From positions 1-41,694 of the IMG/VR virus record IMGVR_UViG_3300010430_000153: DNA of 41,694 bases; one strand, 5' to 3'. The position numbers and the translations under genes were made by a program. The DNA is from a virus. The notes beneath the pieces are model-generated. The model saw nothing but the letters and a program-made list of their open reading frames with translations. It made no database searches and was not told where the DNA came from. Below, one piece after another: positions 30,883 to 37,045 of the stretch (positions are counted from its first letter, which is position 1; each line of letters opens with the position of its first letter).

Positions 30883-31055
30883 CGAGTCGCCCCCCAGACG
30901 GAACCGGCCAGCATCAACCCGCCGACGACGATCAGCGACACCGCCGGAGAGACCCACCAGAGCCCAACGCCCATCGTCGAGAGCCCGAGAATGCCCGTGA
31001 CGTTCACCACGAGTTCCTTCCTCGAACAATCCTCGCTCGGTTGCTCTTCGCTCAC
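30879..31055 (-). CDS. small membrane protein between TerL and portal
   Basis: The 58-residue product has two hydrophobic stretches (VVNVTGILGLSTMGVGLWWV and AVSLIVVGGLMLAGSVWG), with a charged N-terminus. The GTG at 31053-31055 overlaps the TerL stop (GTGA) and its stop overlaps the portal start, so it is clearly a real gene. Small two-helix proteins at this place are often seen in phages; a holin-like role is possible but not shown. Confidence 0.65.
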   Translation of the reverse strand: MSEEQPSEDCSRKELVVNVTGILGLSTMGVGLWWVSPAVSLIVVGGLMLAGSVWGATR

Positions 31056-32854
31056 AGGATCCTCGCCAATGGCTTGTTCACGACCTGAACCCCTCCTCCG
31101 GCGAGCAGTCCCGCGAACGCCATGATCGCCGCCACAATGCCGTCGATCGTCTGCCGGCCGCCGGACTTCGGCTTCACCGGACGGATGTTTCCGTTCGGGT
31201 CCGGCTTCACCTGAACGTGGCCGGCCTGCCAAGTCAGGATCGGGTTGTTGTGCCGAATCTTCCCGGCGATCACCCGACGCTCGAACTCGGCGGTCGGCTC
31301 GGCGAAGTTCACGATCGTCTGCCGGAACTCCACGCGGGGGACGCCGGTGCCCTCCTCGATCACGGTCCCGTCGCGGCTGACGACACCCTGCTCGAGCGTC
31401 TGCGTCGTCTCCTCGGCGTGCCAAGGGTCGTACAGCAGGGACTGCACGTCGAACCGCTCGCAGTCCTCGCGGAAGACGCTGCGGACGAATCCGTAGTCGA
31501 TCACGTCGCCGGGGGTGAGGTGCAGGCCGCCCCGTTTCTGCCAATCGTCCCACCCGGGGAGGTCGCTGTAGAGCTTCGCACGAGTCGTCGGGAGGAAGAA
31601 CCGGGCGATCAGCCGCACGACTTCGGCATCATCGTCGTCACCAAAGGCGTAGACCAACGCCGAGAAGTCGCGGGTCTTCGAGAGGTCCAGAGCCGCGACG
31701 CATGGCTGCCCGGCCAGGTCGTCGTCGGTGACACTCGGGTCGTGCCCCTTCGCCCAGTCCGACGAGTTCAGCCACGGGTTCGAGCCGCTCTGCCAGACGT
31801 TCAACCGGTACTTCTTGAAGAGCGAGAAGGCGGACGTCGACGACTTCGATCGCTGGTAGTCGGCCAGGTACTCGGCCGGGTTGACCGTGTGCCCCATCGC
31901 CGGGTTCGCCATTCGCCCGTAGTTCAACGGGTCGGCCTCGATCTCGGCGTCGCTCACGTCCTGCGGGGCCGCGTAGATCGCCACGAAGAGCTGCTCGTCG
32001 ACGACCTGACCACGCTCGACGAGCAGGGCGTGGTCGAACCGTTCCTTGCCGTACGAGTCCGGGTTGTCGCCGGCGGTCGAGACCTCGATGTGCAGCGGCT
32101 CCGATCGCGAGATGCCGGCCCGGTCGACGCGGTTCGCGAGGTTGCGGTCGACGACGTGGAGTTCGTCGATCAGCACGGAGCCGTTCAGCCCCTCCTTAGA
32201 CTCCTGCGTCCGCTCGTTGGCCGACGACAGCGGCTGCAGGAACGAGAGCGATGGCCCGTGAGTGATCCGCATCAGATTGCGGTTGATCGTGCACTCGGCC
32301 GAGAGTTCGGGGGACTGCTCGACCATCTTCACCGCGTGCTGTCCGACGATGTCTCTGACTTGGTTGCCGTCCTTCGCCGCCGGGAACACCTTCTGCCCGG
32401 GCTCACCGTCCCCGCACAGCAGGTACAAGCCCGTGGCCGCGAGCGTCGGGCTCTTCTTGTTCTTCTTCGCGACGAACACGATCGCTTGGCGGAACCGGCG
32501 GACCTCTCGCTTCCAGAAGTCGTCGTCTCGCACCCAGCCGAAGAGACGCATCGCGAACTCGAACTGCCAGTCGAGGGCGTGCCCGGCGGCCGCGCACTCA
32601 GCGTGCGACGCAGCTCGATCACGCAGGGCCTCGAGGCCTGCGTTGAAGTCGGCCGGGATCGGCCACTCGGCGTCGCACTCGGCGCAGCCACGCAGCCGCA
32701 GCGGCTCGCCGGCGTGCTCGCCCTCGTACAGACGGCAGTGCCGTTCGATCCACCAGACCGTCCACAGGCCTCGATCGACGTCGAACCGGCAACCGTTCGC
32801 CGCCGCCGCCTCGTCGGACGGGTTGCGGATCCAAGACTTGGTGATCTCGTCCAT
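31052..32854 (-). CDS. terL: terminase large subunit
   Basis: The product has 600 residues. The ATPase domain has a Walker-A-like AKKNKKSPT (129-137) and Walker B SVLIDELHVV (226-235, D230-E231). The nuclease domain has ALDLSKTRDF and further acidic residues. It packages DNA into the prohead. An N-terminal part with several cysteines (GCAECDAEW) is a little unusual. It follows TerS by three bases. Confidence 0.92.
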   Translation of the reverse strand: MDEITKSWIRNPSDEAAAANGCRFDVDRGLWTVWWIERHCRLYEGEHAGEPLRLRGCAECDAEWPIPADFNAGLEALRDRAASHAECAAAGHALDWQFEFAMRLFGWVRDDDFWKREVRRFRQAIVFVAKKNKKSPTLAATGLYLLCGDGEPGQKVFPAAKDGNQVRDIVGQHAVKMVEQSPELSAECTINRNLMRITHGPSLSFLQPLSSANERTQESKEGLNGSVLIDELHVVDRNLANRVDRAGISRSEPLHIEVSTAGDNPDSYGKERFDHALLVERGQVVDEQLFVAIYAAPQDVSDAEIEADPLNYGRMANPAMGHTVNPAEYLADYQRSKSSTSAFSLFKKYRLNVWQSGSNPWLNSSDWAKGHDPSVTDDDLAGQPCVAALDLSKTRDFSALVYAFGDDDDAEVVRLIARFFLPTTRAKLYSDLPGWDDWQKRGGLHLTPGDVIDYGFVRSVFREDCERFDVQSLLYDPWHAEETTQTLEQGVVSRDGTVIEEGTGVPRVEFRQTIVNFAEPTAEFERRVIAGKIRHNNPILTWQAGHVQVKPDPNGNIRPVKPKSGGRQTIDGIVAAIMAFAGLLAGGGVQVVNKPLARIL

Positions 32855-32857
32855 CGG

Positions 32858-33301
32858 TCACCCCCGCTTCCGAGTGGCGACGCCAGACTTCTGCTTTGGC
32901 TCGACCTTCAGCCGGGCCCGGTCGCTCGGGGTGAGACCGAACCGTGAGGCAATCCCGTCGAACTCGCCCCAGGCAGTCTTCGTGGCGAGGAGCAACTGCC
33001 GGTAGTACGGGTTCGAGGCCGCCGTGCGGTCGCACTCCTTCGCGGCCTTCTTGTACCGCTTGAACCACTGGCACATCTCCGCCAACTCGACCGCGTCCCG
33101 CTCGGTCGCGACGCCCGACTCGACGAGACCCGGAACGATCGCGTCCCACAGCTTCTTCGCGTCGCCGGCCAACTCCTTCGGACGCTCGGGAGTGCCCGGG
33201 GAGGCGACGATCGCAGCAGGATCACCGTGGCGATCGCGGCGGTGCGTACCGTCCGCGATGTGCAGGATCGCCGGCTTCGGTTTCGGTCCCCGGGTTGCCA
33301 T
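32858..33301 (-). CDS. terS: terminase small subunit, P27 family
   Basis: The product has 147 residues. The N-terminal TRGPKPKPAILHIADGTHR is the P27-family start; a helical middle (LWDAIVPGLVESG, EMCQWFKRYKKA) follows, and the C-terminus is basic. It would bind the packaging site. The ATG at 33299-33301 is preferred to one at 33317-33319 because it starts the conserved motif. Confidence 0.85.
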   Translation of the reverse strand: MATRGPKPKPAILHIADGTHRRDRHGDPAAIVASPGTPERPKELAGDAKKLWDAIVPGLVESGVATERDAVELAEMCQWFKRYKKAAKECDRTAASNPYYRQLLLATKTAWGEFDGIASRFGLTPSDRARLKVEPKQKSGVATRKRG

Positions 33302-33403: not shown

Positions 33404-33462
33404 CTGGTCGCCCATCGACCAACCGGCCTCTCCCCGCCGTCATGCTGGTCGCTCATCGACCA
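33404..33462. repeat. two near-identical palindromic repeats in the HNH-TerS gap (cos/packaging site candidate)
   Basis: CTGGTCGCCCATCGACCA (33404-33421) and CTGGTCGCTCATCGACCA (33445-33462) match at 17 of 18 positions. Each contains inverted arms TGGTCG and CGACCA. The second overlaps the end of the HNH gene. A C-rich tract lies just before the first (33387-33403). A gap between HNH and TerS often holds the packaging site. Confidence 0.6.
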
Positions 33463-33764
33463 CTCGCCGTCTTCCTGCTGTGGCACGTGTGGCACAGCGT
33501 CTCGCAGTTGTCCTCGTCGAAGAACAATGCCGGGTCTCCTCGGTGCGGTGTCTTGTGATCGACGTGGGCCTCCCTACCGTCGACCGCGTTCAGCGTCCCC
33601 TCTCGCAGGCACTCTTGGCAGAGGTGGCAGTCCCGCTCGAGCACGGCCGGCCTGATGCGGTCTCGCCAATCCCTGCTGTCGTACAGCCGTGAGCCGTCCG
33701 CCCGATCGCTGGGCTTCGGTGCGGGTCCCTTCCTCGCTCCGAATGTCGCCGGCTTGGTTGGCAT
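33453..33764 (-). CDS. HNH endonuclease
   Basis: The product has 103 residues. It has CHLCQEC, then AHVDHKTP (the first catalytic H/D), then NCETLCHTCHSRK, the HNH zinc-binding fold. HNH proteins beside terminases assist in packaging cleavage. The ATG at 33762-33764 overlaps the upstream stop by one base. The N-terminus is basic. Confidence 0.88.
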   Translation of the reverse strand: MPTKPATFGARKGPAPKPSDRADGSRLYDSRDWRDRIRPAVLERDCHLCQECLREGTLNAVDGREAHVDHKTPHRGDPALFFDEDNCETLCHTCHSRKTASGR

Positions 33765-34033
33765 CACACGTACCTCACCACTGGCTCGCTCTCTTCGACG
33801 TGGACGTGCTCGCACCCCTCCTGCCGCAGCCGCTCGATGATGGCGTCGACCGTCGAGCAACTTGCCTCGATCTCGATGACGACGCCCGGCTCGGTGAGTC
33901 CCCGCCAGATGCCGGTCGTGGCGTGCACCGTGGCTCCGTGGTTGCCGATGGTGCCGGCGACCAGATCGGCGATCGAGGCCTCTCTGGTCTCGTCCCATTC
34001 GGGGTGCGATGCTCGGAGCACGTAGGTCGTCAT
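33764..34033 (-). CDS. hypothetical protein downstream of the thioredoxin
   Basis: An 89-residue alpha/beta protein with a beta core (GVVIEIEASCSTVDAIIERLRQEG), not recognised. The ATG overlaps the thioredoxin stop (ATGA), and its stop overlaps the HNH start. No signal peptide. It could be part of the cassette above or of the terminase module. Confidence 0.6.
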   Translation of the reverse strand: MTTYVLRASHPEWDETREASIADLVAGTIGNHGATVHATTGIWRGLTEPGVVIEIEASCSTVDAIIERLRQEGCEHVHVEESEPVVRYV

Positions 34034-34671
34034 TTCCCCTCGCACCATCGGCGTGCGATCGAGTTGAATCCCGTCGTGCGGGACGTCGGGCGACCGTTCG
34101 CGTCGAGCTTCACGACGAACGGGATCGACCCGCCGCGGAACCCGTACGTCTTCTCGGCGGTCGCACGCTGGGTGGGGTCGTCCACGTCGAGGTAGACGTA
34201 CGGCGTGCCCGACTGCTCGGCGAGTCTCTTCGCCCCTTGGCAGGGTGGGCACCACGACGCCCCGATGATCGCGACGACCGGCTTCGGCTTCTCGGTCACC
34301 CCTTCGGTAACGTGCCGCTCGGTGTGGAGTTTGTCCATCTGCGATCGCGTGAGCCCCGCAGTCTGCGAGCGGGGGACGCCGTGGTCGCGAACGAGGTGCT
34401 CCCGGTACTCCGCGTCGCTCCCCTCGAATCGCCAGTCCTCCCCGGTGGTCTCGGCCGTCTCGGCCGCGGGATTGAGCTTCGCGAGTGCCTTCTCGAGTTC
34501 GGCGATCCGGGCTTCGAGCTTCGCGATCTCGTCCAGCCGGCACCGGCACTCGACGTAGGGGCCGCCCTTGCCGCAGCCGCAACCCTCGCGGACGGCCGGC
34601 GGCGGGTCGGTGAACACCCAACCGTCCGCGAGTGCGGGGGTGCAGCAGAGCAGGATCAAGATTGTTCGCAT
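34030..34671 (-). CDS. secreted thioredoxin-fold protein with CPPC active site
   Basis: The product has 213 residues. Residues 1-16 (MRTILILLCCTPALA) look like a signal peptide. A cysteine-rich segment (CGCGKGGPYVECRC) and a coiled coil (about 46-68) follow. The C-terminal thioredoxin domain has ASWCPPCQGAK (C141, C144) and cis-proline IP184. It would catalyse disulfide exchange outside the cytoplasm. It ends 4 bases before the next gene by ATGA overlap. It follows a papain-like peptidase and another thioredoxin-like secreted protein. Confidence 0.8.
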   Translation of the reverse strand: MRTILILLCCTPALADGWVFTDPPPAVREGCGCGKGGPYVECRCRLDEIAKLEARIAELEKALAKLNPAAETAETTGEDWRFEGSDAEYREHLVRDHGVPRSQTAGLTRSQMDKLHTERHVTEGVTEKPKPVVAIIGASWCPPCQGAKRLAEQSGTPYVYLDVDDPTQRATAEKTYGFRGGSIPFVVKLDANGRPTSRTTGFNSIARRWCEGK

Positions 34672-34680
34672 CGGTCTCTC

Positions 34681-35520
34681 CTATGCGGCCGTCGCCGGGA
34701 CGGCCTTGACGGTGTGGACCGCAACTCCCTCCTCGAAATACTTCTTGGAGCCGAACTGGCGACCGTAGCCACCGTCCCCCCACGACTCGCGCCATGAGTT
34801 CTCCAACTCGTTCCCGATCTCGCCGTTCCGTCCGATCACAGGGTCCGTGAGCATGACGGCGTGGCCCCAGTGCATTTGCCCGACGCAGACGGGGATGTCG
34901 CAGACCATGCAGCAGATCGCCTCCCACCACGCTTCCTCTTTGTCCTTCCGGGCGTCGAGGTCGACGAACTCGGTCGGGACGTAGAGCTTGCGGTCGGCCA
35001 GCACGCCGGGGGCGTCCATGCGGCCCCGGTCGCGGTCGTAGTCCGGCCAGTGTTCGGACGTCGCGACGCCGTTCTTCGCGGCCCATTCGAGCCACTTCGT
35101 CGGCCACCCGCCGCGGTTCGCGAAGTTCACGATCGGGGCACAGACGGACGCGGGCGAGAGCGAGACGAACGGCATCCCCATCGCGACGATCCGGGTCTCG
35201 ACGGCCGACGCGGCGCAGAACCCCCAGCAGAACCCGATTCCGTTCTGGTTCTTGATCTTCCGACCGCCGAGCTTGATCTTGTCCCGCAACCGGTTCCCCG
35301 TCCGCTCCCGCTCTTCGATCCGCTCCTTCACTTCCTTCTCGGTCAGGAGCGGGAGCGTGAACGGCTTCGCCCCCTCGAACCCGCAGAACGGGATCTCGTC
35401 GAAGTCGCGGGGCTCGTCGTAGCCCTTCGAGAATCCGTCCGCCGACAACAACCCATTCGGCGTCGAGTCGTCGAAGGTGGCCGCCTGCATCGCGGGAGAA
35501 GCGGGGGAGTGGTAGGTCAT
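34681..35520 (-). CDS. papain-like cysteine peptidase (C1 family)
   Basis: The product has 279 residues. Q92 and C98 occur in NQNGIGFCWGF, the family's active-site segment; H220 is in MHWGHAVM and N241 in LENSWRESWGDGGYG. All four papain catalytic residues are in order. Residues 1-90 may be a propeptide. No signal peptide is seen, so export would need another route, for instance a holin. In phages such enzymes are rare. The ATG overlaps the upstream stop (ATGA). Confidence 0.85.
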   Translation of the reverse strand: MTYHSPASPAMQAATFDDSTPNGLLSADGFSKGYDEPRDFDEIPFCGFEGAKPFTLPLLTEKEVKERIEERERTGNRLRDKIKLGGRKIKNQNGIGFCWGFCAASAVETRIVAMGMPFVSLSPASVCAPIVNFANRGGWPTKWLEWAAKNGVATSEHWPDYDRDRGRMDAPGVLADRKLYVPTEFVDLDARKDKEEAWWEAICCMVCDIPVCVGQMHWGHAVMLTDPVIGRNGEIGNELENSWRESWGDGGYGRQFGSKKYFEEGVAVHTVKAVPATAA

Positions 35521-36344
35521 CGCTTGAACCGTTCGAGGACTTCGATCATCCCGTCGACCGTGTCGGGGACGGGGCCGCTCCACCCGGCAACACCATTCGA
35601 GACGGCCATCCACGGCATCGTGTTCGCGGACGACTTCGCTTTCGCGAACCCCTCCTGCCAGAACTTGTGGACCCCCGAGACGTCCGTGTCTTTGTCGAAC
35701 ACGCGGAACGCTCGTCCGGTTCCATCCTTCGCCGCGTTCTCGGCGATCCACTTCCGGGTCCGGACCGACGTGTATGCGTCGAGTTGCCCGACCGGGATCG
35801 AATGCCGGTTCATGTCGTCTTCGAGGATCAGGACCGCGACCCCGTCGAACGGGAAGTCCGGGTTGGGTTTCGGGTCCGGCTTCGGATCGGGCTTCGGGTC
35901 CGGCTTGGGCTCGGGATCCGGCTTCGGGTCGATCTCGCCAACCGTGACGATGTGCCCCGCGATCGCGATCCCGGTCGAATCCGACACCGCGAGCGTGACC
36001 CGGTACACCCCCGGACATGACGACAGGATCAGTGTCCGGCCGTCCGCGGACGTCCACCAGAGAAGCGTGCTCGACGGCGGGGGCGGCGCGACATCGAACC
36101 CGGCGCGGCGCAGAACCGCGATCGCCTCCGCGTACTCTTCGGGCGTCTGGCGACGGCCCGGTACCTTCACGCCGGACGTGTCGACCGACCACGCGACGTG
36201 GTCGCCCTCCCCGGTTGCGTCCAGTTGGACCAACGGCCCGACCGGGGCTTCCCGCGGCCCCTCGATGATCGCGGACGGGTCGCCATAGGCCGTGGAGGCC
36301 ACGGACGCGACCATGAGGGCGAGCAGCAGGGGGAAACGAGTCAC
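35517..36344 (-). CDS. secreted protein with PKD-like and thioredoxin-like domains
   Basis: The product has 275 residues. Residues 1-21 are a signal peptide (FPLLLALMVASVASTAYG). A beta-sandwich-like segment follows (about 25-135), then a KPDP linker (139-163). The C-terminal 110 residues (VAVLILEDDMNRHSIP, MPWMAVSNG) resemble a thioredoxin fold with a cis-proline but without CxxC. It may bind rather than reduce a partner. The GTG overlaps the 33-residue gene (GTGA). Confidence 0.65.
   Translation of the reverse strand: MTRFPLLLALMVASVASTAYGDPSAIIEGPREAPVGPLVQLDATGEGDHVAWSVDTSGVKVPGRRQTPEEYAEAIAVLRRAGFDVAPPPPSSTLLWWTSADGRTLILSSCPGVYRVTLAVSDSTGIAIAGHIVTVGEIDPKPDPEPKPDPKPDPKPDPKPNPDFPFDGVAVLILEDDMNRHSIPVGQLDAYTSVRTRKWIAENAAKDGTGRAFRVFDKDTDVSGVHKFWQEGFAKAKSSANTMPWMAVSNGVAGWSGPVPDTVDGMIEVLERFKR
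35856..35930. repeat. tandem 12-base repeats encoding the KPDP linker
   Basis: Degenerate GGCTTCGGGTCC-type units repeat through the codons for residues 139-163 of the secreted protein and give a rigid Pro-rich linker. It is a coding repeat, not a CRISPR: there are no unique spacers. Confidence 0.8.
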
Positions 36345-36442
36345 TCGAACGCCTCTCGAATCAGGAACAGCAGCACCCACAACGCCCAAGCCGCGACTCC
36401 GACGAGGAGCCACGGCCAAGAGGGGCGGGGTTCGCGGTTCAC
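36341..36442 (-). CDS. 33-residue single-span membrane microprotein
   Basis: The GTG at 36440-36442 overlaps the stop of the 112-residue gene (GTGA), and the TGA at 36341-36343 overlaps the next GTG in the same way. The protein has a short polar start (NREPRPS), one hydrophobic helix (WPWLLVGVAAWALWVLLFLI) and a charged end (REAFE). Dual coupling and the membrane helix support a true gene. It could be a holin, antiholin or spanin-like factor; unproven. Confidence 0.65.
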   Translation of the reverse strand: MNREPRPSWPWLLVGVAAWALWVLLFLIREAFE

Positions 36443-36777
36443 GCGACCTTGCCGAGAAACCCGAGCATCTTCGCGAGTTGCAGGATCAGCAGGACCGTCT
36501 CGACGATCCCCTCCGGCTTGTCGCCGTCGGCCTGCAGGGCGCAGCGACTCTCGATCTCGGCCGCGAGTTCCTCCTTCGACGTGAACGCCGGGAGGTCGTC
36601 GATCCCGGCCCCGAACCCCTCGTCGAGCGAGTTGCCCGCATACCCCGCCACGTACGCGACGTCGATCAGGGACTCGGAGCGGGCTTCGGTCAGGACCGTC
36701 CCGTTCGTGGTGTTGCGGGCGAGATTCAGGCCGTGCGTGAACGCGAGGGCCTGCGTGAAGTGGGGGTCGTGTGCCAT
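36439..36777 (-). CDS. hypothetical protein in the lysis-like cassette
   Basis: A 112-residue soluble protein, alpha-rich (TQALAFTHGLNLARNT, DVAYVAGYAGNSLDEG), ending with an amphipathic or hydrophobic helix (VETVLLILQLAKMLGFLG). It is not recognised. The ATG lies four bases after the upstream stop. The C-terminal helix may contact the membrane. Confidence 0.6.
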   Translation of the reverse strand: MAHDPHFTQALAFTHGLNLARNTTNGTVLTEARSESLIDVAYVAGYAGNSLDEGFGAGIDDLPAFTSKEELAAEIESRCALQADGDKPEGIVETVLLILQLAKMLGFLGKVA

Positions 36778-36781
36778 TGCC

Positions 36782-37045
36782 TCAATCTCCGTGGTGTGAG
36801 GTGCGCTTGTGGATTTCGGCGAGCAGCGAAGATTGCTCCTCGAGGATGTGCGTCTGCCGCTCGAGGGCTTCCGTCTGCCGGACGTCGTTGGTCTTGAGCG
36901 TGTCGACCAGCCCGCAGTGGGCGTCAACGACGCGGTCGGCACGGGGAGACGCCCATAGGAGCACCTTGCGAATCGCCAGACCGACCAAGAGCAGCAACGC
37001 CCACGCTGGGCCTTGCGACGCGAGTTGTGTGACGAGTGATTCCAT
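36782..37045 (-). CDS. membrane-anchored coiled-coil protein, holin-like
   Basis: The 87-residue product has one N-terminal membrane segment (PAWALLLLVGLAIRKVLLW) followed by a coiled coil (DTLKTNDVRQTEALERQ, ILEEQSSLLAEIHK). It is the first gene after the terminator at 37058-37092, so it opens the late operon. Layout and place resemble phage holins or spanin-type proteins, but no family match is certain. Confidence 0.6.
   Translation of the reverse strand: MESLVTQLASQGPAWALLLLVGLAIRKVLLWASPRADRVVDAHCGLVDTLKTNDVRQTEALERQTHILEEQSSLLAEIHKRTSHHGD

Follow-up and report, generated by a model that had tools for sequence, protein, structure and literature searches.

The window analysed here is the entire IMG/VR record IMGVR_UViG_3300010430_000153 (41,694 bases), in which genes were called with a simple script and lists of open reading frames (ORFs). 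Its minus strand carries a gene cassette between the RusA gene (37973-37533) and the genes for an HNH endonuclease and the small and large terminase subunits (TerS and TerL; 33770-31052). In this cassette, the gene for an exported protein with a thioredoxin-like domain (TrxA-like) is immediately followed by the gene for a papain-family (C1) peptidase (Table 1). An earlier note, made from the sequence alone, had listed five cassette proteins: a membrane-anchored coiled-coil protein, a 33-residue membrane microprotein, two secreted thioredoxin-fold proteins, and the peptidase. All five are present at that place and on that strand, but the list had omitted the gene g52, which encodes a protein of 112 amino acids (aa). 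The claim that most of these genes are linked by 4-base overlaps agrees with the four junctions found (g52/33-aa microprotein, microprotein/TrxA-like, TrxA-like/peptidase, and CPPC thioredoxin/g48), and the start codon of the peptidase lies within the ATGA that terminates the TrxA-like gene.

The same pair of genes recurs in other phages. When the window peptidase or the TrxA-like protein was used as a direct query, nothing was found in the viral collection, the genome collection, or the phage records; the relatives were reached via TerL and then via the loci L003 and L041. The L041 peptidase, from ORFs taken directly from the sequence, is 31% identical to that of the window over 231 aa (E = 1e-34). 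A profile of seven peptidases gave 3 strong matches in 392 Planctomycetota genomes, and an enlarged profile gave 15 matches in 397 genomes of one order, some genomes being shared between the two samples; these genome scans covered Planctomycetota only. Two of the matches, L056 (392-genome scan) and L102 (397-genome scan), were left out as apparently unrelated C1A proteins. In total, 25 cassette loci were obtained: the window, six more IMG/VR contigs, and about 16 Planctomycetota genomes from a sample of some 780. When the 25 peptidase regions were scanned with a TrxA-like profile in all six frames, 24 of them each yielded exactly one TrxA-like ORF, and at all these 24 loci with separate genes, it is the immediate upstream neighbour of the peptidase on the same strand. 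The TrxA-like profile was iterated and its E-values are therefore optimistic, but the hits were selected independently of position. The occurrence of the same pair in the same order at 25 loci is beyond chance, and the search for this gene order in planctomycete prophages, which the earlier note had proposed, was thus productive. At the 25th locus (L099), a single 432-aa protein consists of a signal peptide, a region judged Trx-like by eye (the TrxA-like profile did not confirm it), and a C1 domain (PF00112, 7.8e-16). Since this C1 domain is located behind a signal peptide, that peptidase is predicted to be outside the cytoplasm, which argues that the peptidase of the cassette acts there.

The surroundings of the pair were also compared. 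In the window and in L003, G210, G332, G488, G532, G697, and G493, the pair has its place directly upstream of the terminase genes, and small transmembrane or transmembrane plus coiled-coil genes adjoin it in most of the inspected loci. L003 has, at the same position, transmembrane proteins, a TrxA-like protein, a C1 peptidase (KIKNQ...C...GHA...NSWG), and a Cys-rich lipoprotein-like coiled coil; L041 has a transmembrane protein, a TrxA-like protein, a C1 peptidase, and a secreted trypsin-like protein, the last of which is also found in the G199 and L100 cassettes. At L044-L047, the pair and a transmembrane plus coiled-coil gene are situated between head and tail genes. The phages carrying the cassette are divergent, with different terminases and portals: the portals of G332/G210 and G199 are of the lambda type (PF05136), while that of the window belongs to PF04860. 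No recognisable cassette was found beside TerL in the terminase relatives L002, L005, L007, and L048. Kinship of the coiled-coil proteins of L094-L096 with XhlA was considered, and Pfam gave no support for the one tested. Directly downstream of the cassette in the G199 prophage, a 1543-aa signal-peptide protein is encoded (L057:11739-16370).

The window peptidase matches PF00112 with an E-value of 1.6e-10 (41.9 bits, against a curated cut-off of 20.7), and its sequence also matches solved ficins and cathepsin K. The residues Q92, C98, H220, and N241 named by the earlier note are correct when counted from the ATG that overlaps the end of the TrxA-like gene. This tetrad is kept in the ten best-aligned peptidases, with the Gln shifted by one column in three of them. 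Among the 25 aligned, very divergent peptidases, the catalytic Cys is found in 24 and the His in 23, and the Gln/Asn gaps in this automatic alignment are partly one-column shifts or badly aligned ends. The AlphaFold2 model is of modest confidence (predicted local distance difference test score, pLDDT, 57); in Foldseek, it matched cathepsin K/L with a probability of 1.00, an E-value of 1.6e-7, and a template modelling score (target) of ~0.6. By profile, residue tetrad, and modelled fold, the peptidase is a member of family C1, and its proteolytic activity is predicted. PF00112 was its sole Pfam match, and the I29-type inhibitory pro-domain, a feature of many but not all C1 members, was not found.

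Of the two proteins regarded earlier as secreted and thioredoxin-fold, the CPPC protein (TrxB) stands as described: it has a hydrophobic N-terminus and the CPPC motif, and matches the PHROG 'thioredoxin domain' (phrog_22, 2.2e-10) and, at the cut-off, PF00462. The TrxA-like protein, however, had to be given up as a redox enzyme. Its Trx-like domain in the window contains no cysteine whatever, and CxxC is absent from all 24 TrxA-like domains examined; therefore, it would not be a reductase, and, judged from these sequences, disulfide reduction by the core partner is ruled out. More likely, it binds, positions, or restrains the protease. The C-terminal region was modelled by AlphaFold2 as beta-alpha-beta-alpha-beta-beta-alpha, with modest confidence (pLDDT ~64-94). 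The Foldseek comparison suggested by the earlier note gave a clear result for the peptidase and a weaker one here, the best matches being mainly thioredoxins at E ~0.05. The domains of the window and its L041 homologue match each other with an E-value of 4e-10. By analogy with TonB, the Pro-rich linker could span the periplasm with the Trx-like domain.

These data bear on the model put forward in the earlier note, in which secreted thioredoxins reduce the disulfides of a protein wall and the protease then digests that wall. A CxxC thioredoxin does occur downstream of the peptidase in the window, G199, G210, G332, G488, and G485 (it is fused to a trypsin-like domain in G199, and the start of the G488 ORF was clipped by the gene caller), and several exported cassette proteins have Cys-rich C-terminal tails. 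Nevertheless, such a thioredoxin is present in only ~6 of the 25 loci and the constant partner has no CxxC; therefore, reduction is not the core step. The notion of a disulfide-bonded protein wall in place of peptidoglycan is also outdated: older work described a wall of protein resistant to sodium dodecyl sulfate in planctomycetes (PMC3422733), but these bacteria possess lysozyme-sensitive peptidoglycan sacculi (PMC4432640). We regard this model as very improbable. Separately, 8 of 670 pooled proteins carry a C-x2-G-x-C tail at the C-terminus, and all eight are secreted cassette members (L094-L096, L098, L099, L100, L101, and L108); two further such tails were seen by eye (L045 and L041). This tail is possibly an envelope-anchoring or disulfide motif.

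Table 1 Genes of the cassette and its terminase-side flank in the window
Feature	Position	Strand	Remarks
Transmembrane plus coiled-coil protein, 87 aa	36782..37045	-	N-terminal transmembrane helix at about residues 14-32, then charged coiled coil; holin-like layout
g52, acidic 112-aa protein with hydrophobic C-terminus	36439..36777	-	Between the coiled-coil protein and the 33-aa peptide
33-aa microprotein with a single transmembrane segment, GTG start	36341..36442	-	4-base overlap with each neighbour
TrxA-like: signal peptide or anchor, beta (PKD-like) region, (KPDP)n linker, C-terminal thioredoxin-like domain	35517..36344	-	
Papain-family (C1) peptidase, 279 aa, without signal peptide, Q92-C98-H220-N241	34681..35520	-	
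TrxB: signal peptide, Cys-rich segment (CGCGKGG...CRC), coiled coil, CPPC thioredoxin domain	34030..34671	-	
g48, acidic 89-aa protein (flank, not conserved)	33764..34033	-	4-base overlap with TrxB
HNH endonuclease (flank), upstream of the terminase genes	33453..33770	-	PF01844, 1e-8; phrog_144, 1.5e-22
Terminase small subunit (flank)	32858..33301	-	Homologous to the ORF preceding TerL in L009, L002, and L003
Terminase large subunit (flank)	31052..32854	-	

The remaining genes of the cassette are less conspicuous. The 87-aa protein weakly resembles the transmembrane plus coiled-coil protein of the G210 cassette (27% over 73 aa, E = 4e-4, ten proteins compared). No Pfam or PHROG match was found for g52, and small proteins occur at a comparable position in L053, L054, and L044. 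Neither the transmembrane nor the transmembrane plus coiled-coil protein of the window matched a holin profile above threshold (Pfam, PHROGs), and a transmembrane protein of L003 shows a sub-threshold resemblance to Phage_holin_2. The position described earlier as the 'head of the late operon' holds in the sense that the cassette is flanked by the early block, which ends with RusA, and by the HNH-TerS-TerL genes, but minus-strand genes (RusA and others) continue upstream. A weak terminator-like stem at 37081-37063, one of 5 such sites found against 3.0 expected, fits a new transcription unit starting at the cassette. Two side observations were made by eye: the 996-aa TerL of L007 (2936-5926) has an intein-like insertion of ~370 aa past the Walker A region, and the portal protein of L009 (2560-4839) has an inserted C39-like peptidase domain (CGAAATAAVCKYF ... 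GHYVVVVG).

The start of a C-5 cytosine methylase gene lies at the left end of the record (161-3) and the end of such a gene at the right end (41646-41392), both on the minus strand. The record thus probably breaks inside one methylase gene and lacks no more than a few hundred bases, so that the window probably represents an almost entire genome that is circular or permuted. A match to an integrase profile (phrog_1) suggests that the phage is temperate. TerL relatives in the GTDB collection were found in two Planctomycetota metagenome-assembled genomes (MAGs) only, and these, together with the cassette-bearing prophages, support Planctomycetota as the host phylum, in line with the planctomycete host of the earlier note. 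The other window proteins matched in Pfam and PHROGs include a portal, a capsid protein, an S78 prohead protease (PF04586), RusA, a helicase, and methylases.

The earlier note had also recognised no canonical endolysin. Its observation was borne out in this near-complete genome: no known endolysin family appeared among the best 25 of 32 Pfam families or the best 25 PHROG families, and a second PHROGs scan of 39 otherwise unassigned proteins gave 14 families without an endolysin. Likewise, none was found among the 16 Pfam families of the G332/G210 prophage or the best 25 of 30 families of the G199 prophage. This lack of another recognised hydrolase in the window suits the idea that peptidoglycan is the substrate of the C1 peptidase, which would then be a papain-fold endolysin other than CHAP, NlpC/P60, or C39 and would cut stem peptides or cross-bridges. 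Like classical endolysins, it has no signal peptide and adjoins holin-like genes, and the papain-fold CHAP and NlpC/P60 enzymes do serve as endolysins. However, its sequence and structure match the protein-cutting cathepsins with the complete Q-C-H-N set, and it has no cell-wall binding domain, so that we consider this function distinctly unlikely.

It is quite possible, although somewhat short of probable, that tailed phages of Planctomycetota use the cassette as a module for lysis or egress. This reading is favoured by the terminase-side position, the small transmembrane genes, the soluble enzyme without a signal peptide, and the exported and anchored partner, as well as by the absence of recognised wall hydrolases; the lambda lysis genes are likewise directly upstream of the terminase. 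Its basis comprises gene content, gene order, conservation, catalytic residues, the protease fold, and the absence of a recognised wall hydrolase from three scanned genomes, and from this we infer every functional step as follows. The core would be two genes, encoding an exported, membrane-anchored, redox-inactive Trx-like protein and a papain-like endopeptidase without a signal peptide, which would be expressed late and, in many loci, tightly coupled in translation. The small transmembrane and transmembrane plus coiled-coil proteins would act as holins, through which the folded protease would cross the inner membrane like an endolysin. The TrxA-like protein would then bind or position the protease in the envelope, where it may cut envelope proteins, for example, ones tying the outer membrane or surface layer to the wall, and the cell would burst or virions would leak out. 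In some phages, the optional secreted CxxC thioredoxin and secreted trypsin-like protease might extend the attack to disulfide-bonded proteins.

Several points weigh against such a module. Papain-family enzymes cleave proteins and not peptidoglycan; since planctomycetes have peptidoglycan, they would not necessarily be lysed by a protease alone. An active papain in the cytoplasm would require restraint, and the transmembrane genes are candidate holins by layout alone. Near the pair of L101, there is a C92 (YaeF/YiiX) permuted papain-like, amidase-like protein (1188-1787; PF05708, 4.7e-15). Finally, at L044-L047 and L094, the pair lies amid head and tail genes. This last placement would suit a reading in which the protease matured a structural or tail protein or aided entry, with the secreted Trx proteins folding disulfide-rich virion proteins. 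Such a role in the virion or its assembly is very unlikely: the window already encodes an S78 prohead protease, exporting the partner would serve no purpose in virion assembly in the cytoplasm, and the L099 fusion bears a signal peptide.

As controls, the two TerL relatives in Planctomycetota MAGs (G001 and G002) were examined. On G002:C142, a 17-kb fragment of a Pirellulaceae MAG carrying a TerL of the window's broad family, a Peptidase_M15_3 endolysin (PF08291; G002:C142:590-955, L111) adjoins a transmembrane plus coiled-coil protein, and the contig has no C1 gene. M15_3 was found in none of the 12 cassette-bearing genomes or records. The contig G002:C1 carries a further C1 cassette (L108) that the profile had missed, and as MAG contigs are possibly misbinned, this M15/C1 comparison is suggestive only. 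The G001 prophage has neither the cassette nor a recognised endolysin among its scanned proteins, which also counts against the lysis or egress module; therefore, the lack of a known endolysin is weak evidence. In that prophage, a few genes upstream of TerL and at the position taken by the C1 cassette in the window, an alpha/beta-hydrolase-like protein was noticed by eye (L106:2665-3300), which recalls the LysB esterases of mycobacteriophages.

The G001 prophage would suit host takeover, superinfection exclusion, or lysogenic conversion, in which the late protease, together with its exported partner, would remodel or shield the envelope of the infected cell with no role in lysis; for example, the protease would cut a receptor or host effector, and the real lysis genes would have escaped recognition. 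Proteins with signal peptides and anchors suit surface remodelling, the terminase-side region holds accessory genes in other phages, and the optional trypsin-like and CxxC Trx partners differ among the phages. Accessory genes, however, are usually patchy and single, while here a two-gene core with transmembrane partners recurs in divergent phages. In addition, PADLOC matched neither the cassette proteins of the window nor the tested C1 peptidases, and its only match, a weak one to RT-Protease_XI, concerned the trypsin domain of the G199 trypsin-Trx protein; an anti-phage defence system was accordingly rejected. Host takeover or a related function is thus unlikely in our judgement.

For the lysis or egress module, a wider claim can be formulated: many Planctomycetota phages would lyse or leave their host by a protease module, composed of an exported, redox-dead adaptor with a putative thioredoxin fold and a papain-like endopeptidase released by holin-like proteins, which replaces the peptidoglycan hydrolase of other double-stranded DNA phages. 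In this general form, the proposal is tentative and rather doubtful. Our literature searches found no paper on the cassette and none on lysis enzymes of planctomycete phages, and how phages lyse planctomycetes seems to be little known. A cultured planctomycete phage of 21.9 kb is reported to be released chronically, and the word 'peptidase' is absent from the text describing it (PMC10945688). The conserved cassette, with its cathepsin-like protease and exported, putatively Trx-fold partner, is a concrete candidate for planctomycete phage lysis. If confirmed, it would be, as far as we know, the first lysis or egress system of tailed phages that is led by a protease, and it would direct attention to the envelope proteins by which planctomycete cells are held together. 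Even with another role, the pair is a widespread phage module of which no description was found in the literature searched.

The cassette can be set beside four known systems. The G002:C142 fragment with the Peptidase_M15_3 endolysin shares with the window the broad TerL family and a neighbouring transmembrane plus coiled-coil protein, but has a canonical peptidoglycan-directed enzyme where the window has the C1 cassette. Periplasmic thioredoxins of the DsbE-TlpA-like type resemble TrxB in the signal peptide, CPPC, and thioredoxin match, and the TrxA-like protein in export and in its predicted thioredoxin-like fold; the latter differs in its long Pro-rich linker and the lack of CxxC, and would therefore be incapable of disulfide exchange. 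Family C1 (papain, cathepsins K/L) is matched in the Pfam profile above the cut-off, the Q-C-H-N tetrad, and the fold, whereas the cassette peptidase is a stand-alone, phage-borne form without an I29 pro-domain match or signal peptide, has a shorter N-terminal extension with a conserved helix, and is paired with a Trx-like gene. The lambda lysis cassette (holin S, endolysin R, and spanins Rz/Rz1) likewise consists of late genes directly upstream of the terminase, with small transmembrane proteins, a soluble enzyme without a signal peptide, and an exported membrane-anchored partner with a Pro-rich stretch. In the present putative lysis system, the enzyme is a papain-like peptidase and not a peptidoglycan hydrolase, and the partner has a predicted thioredoxin fold instead of being a spanin.

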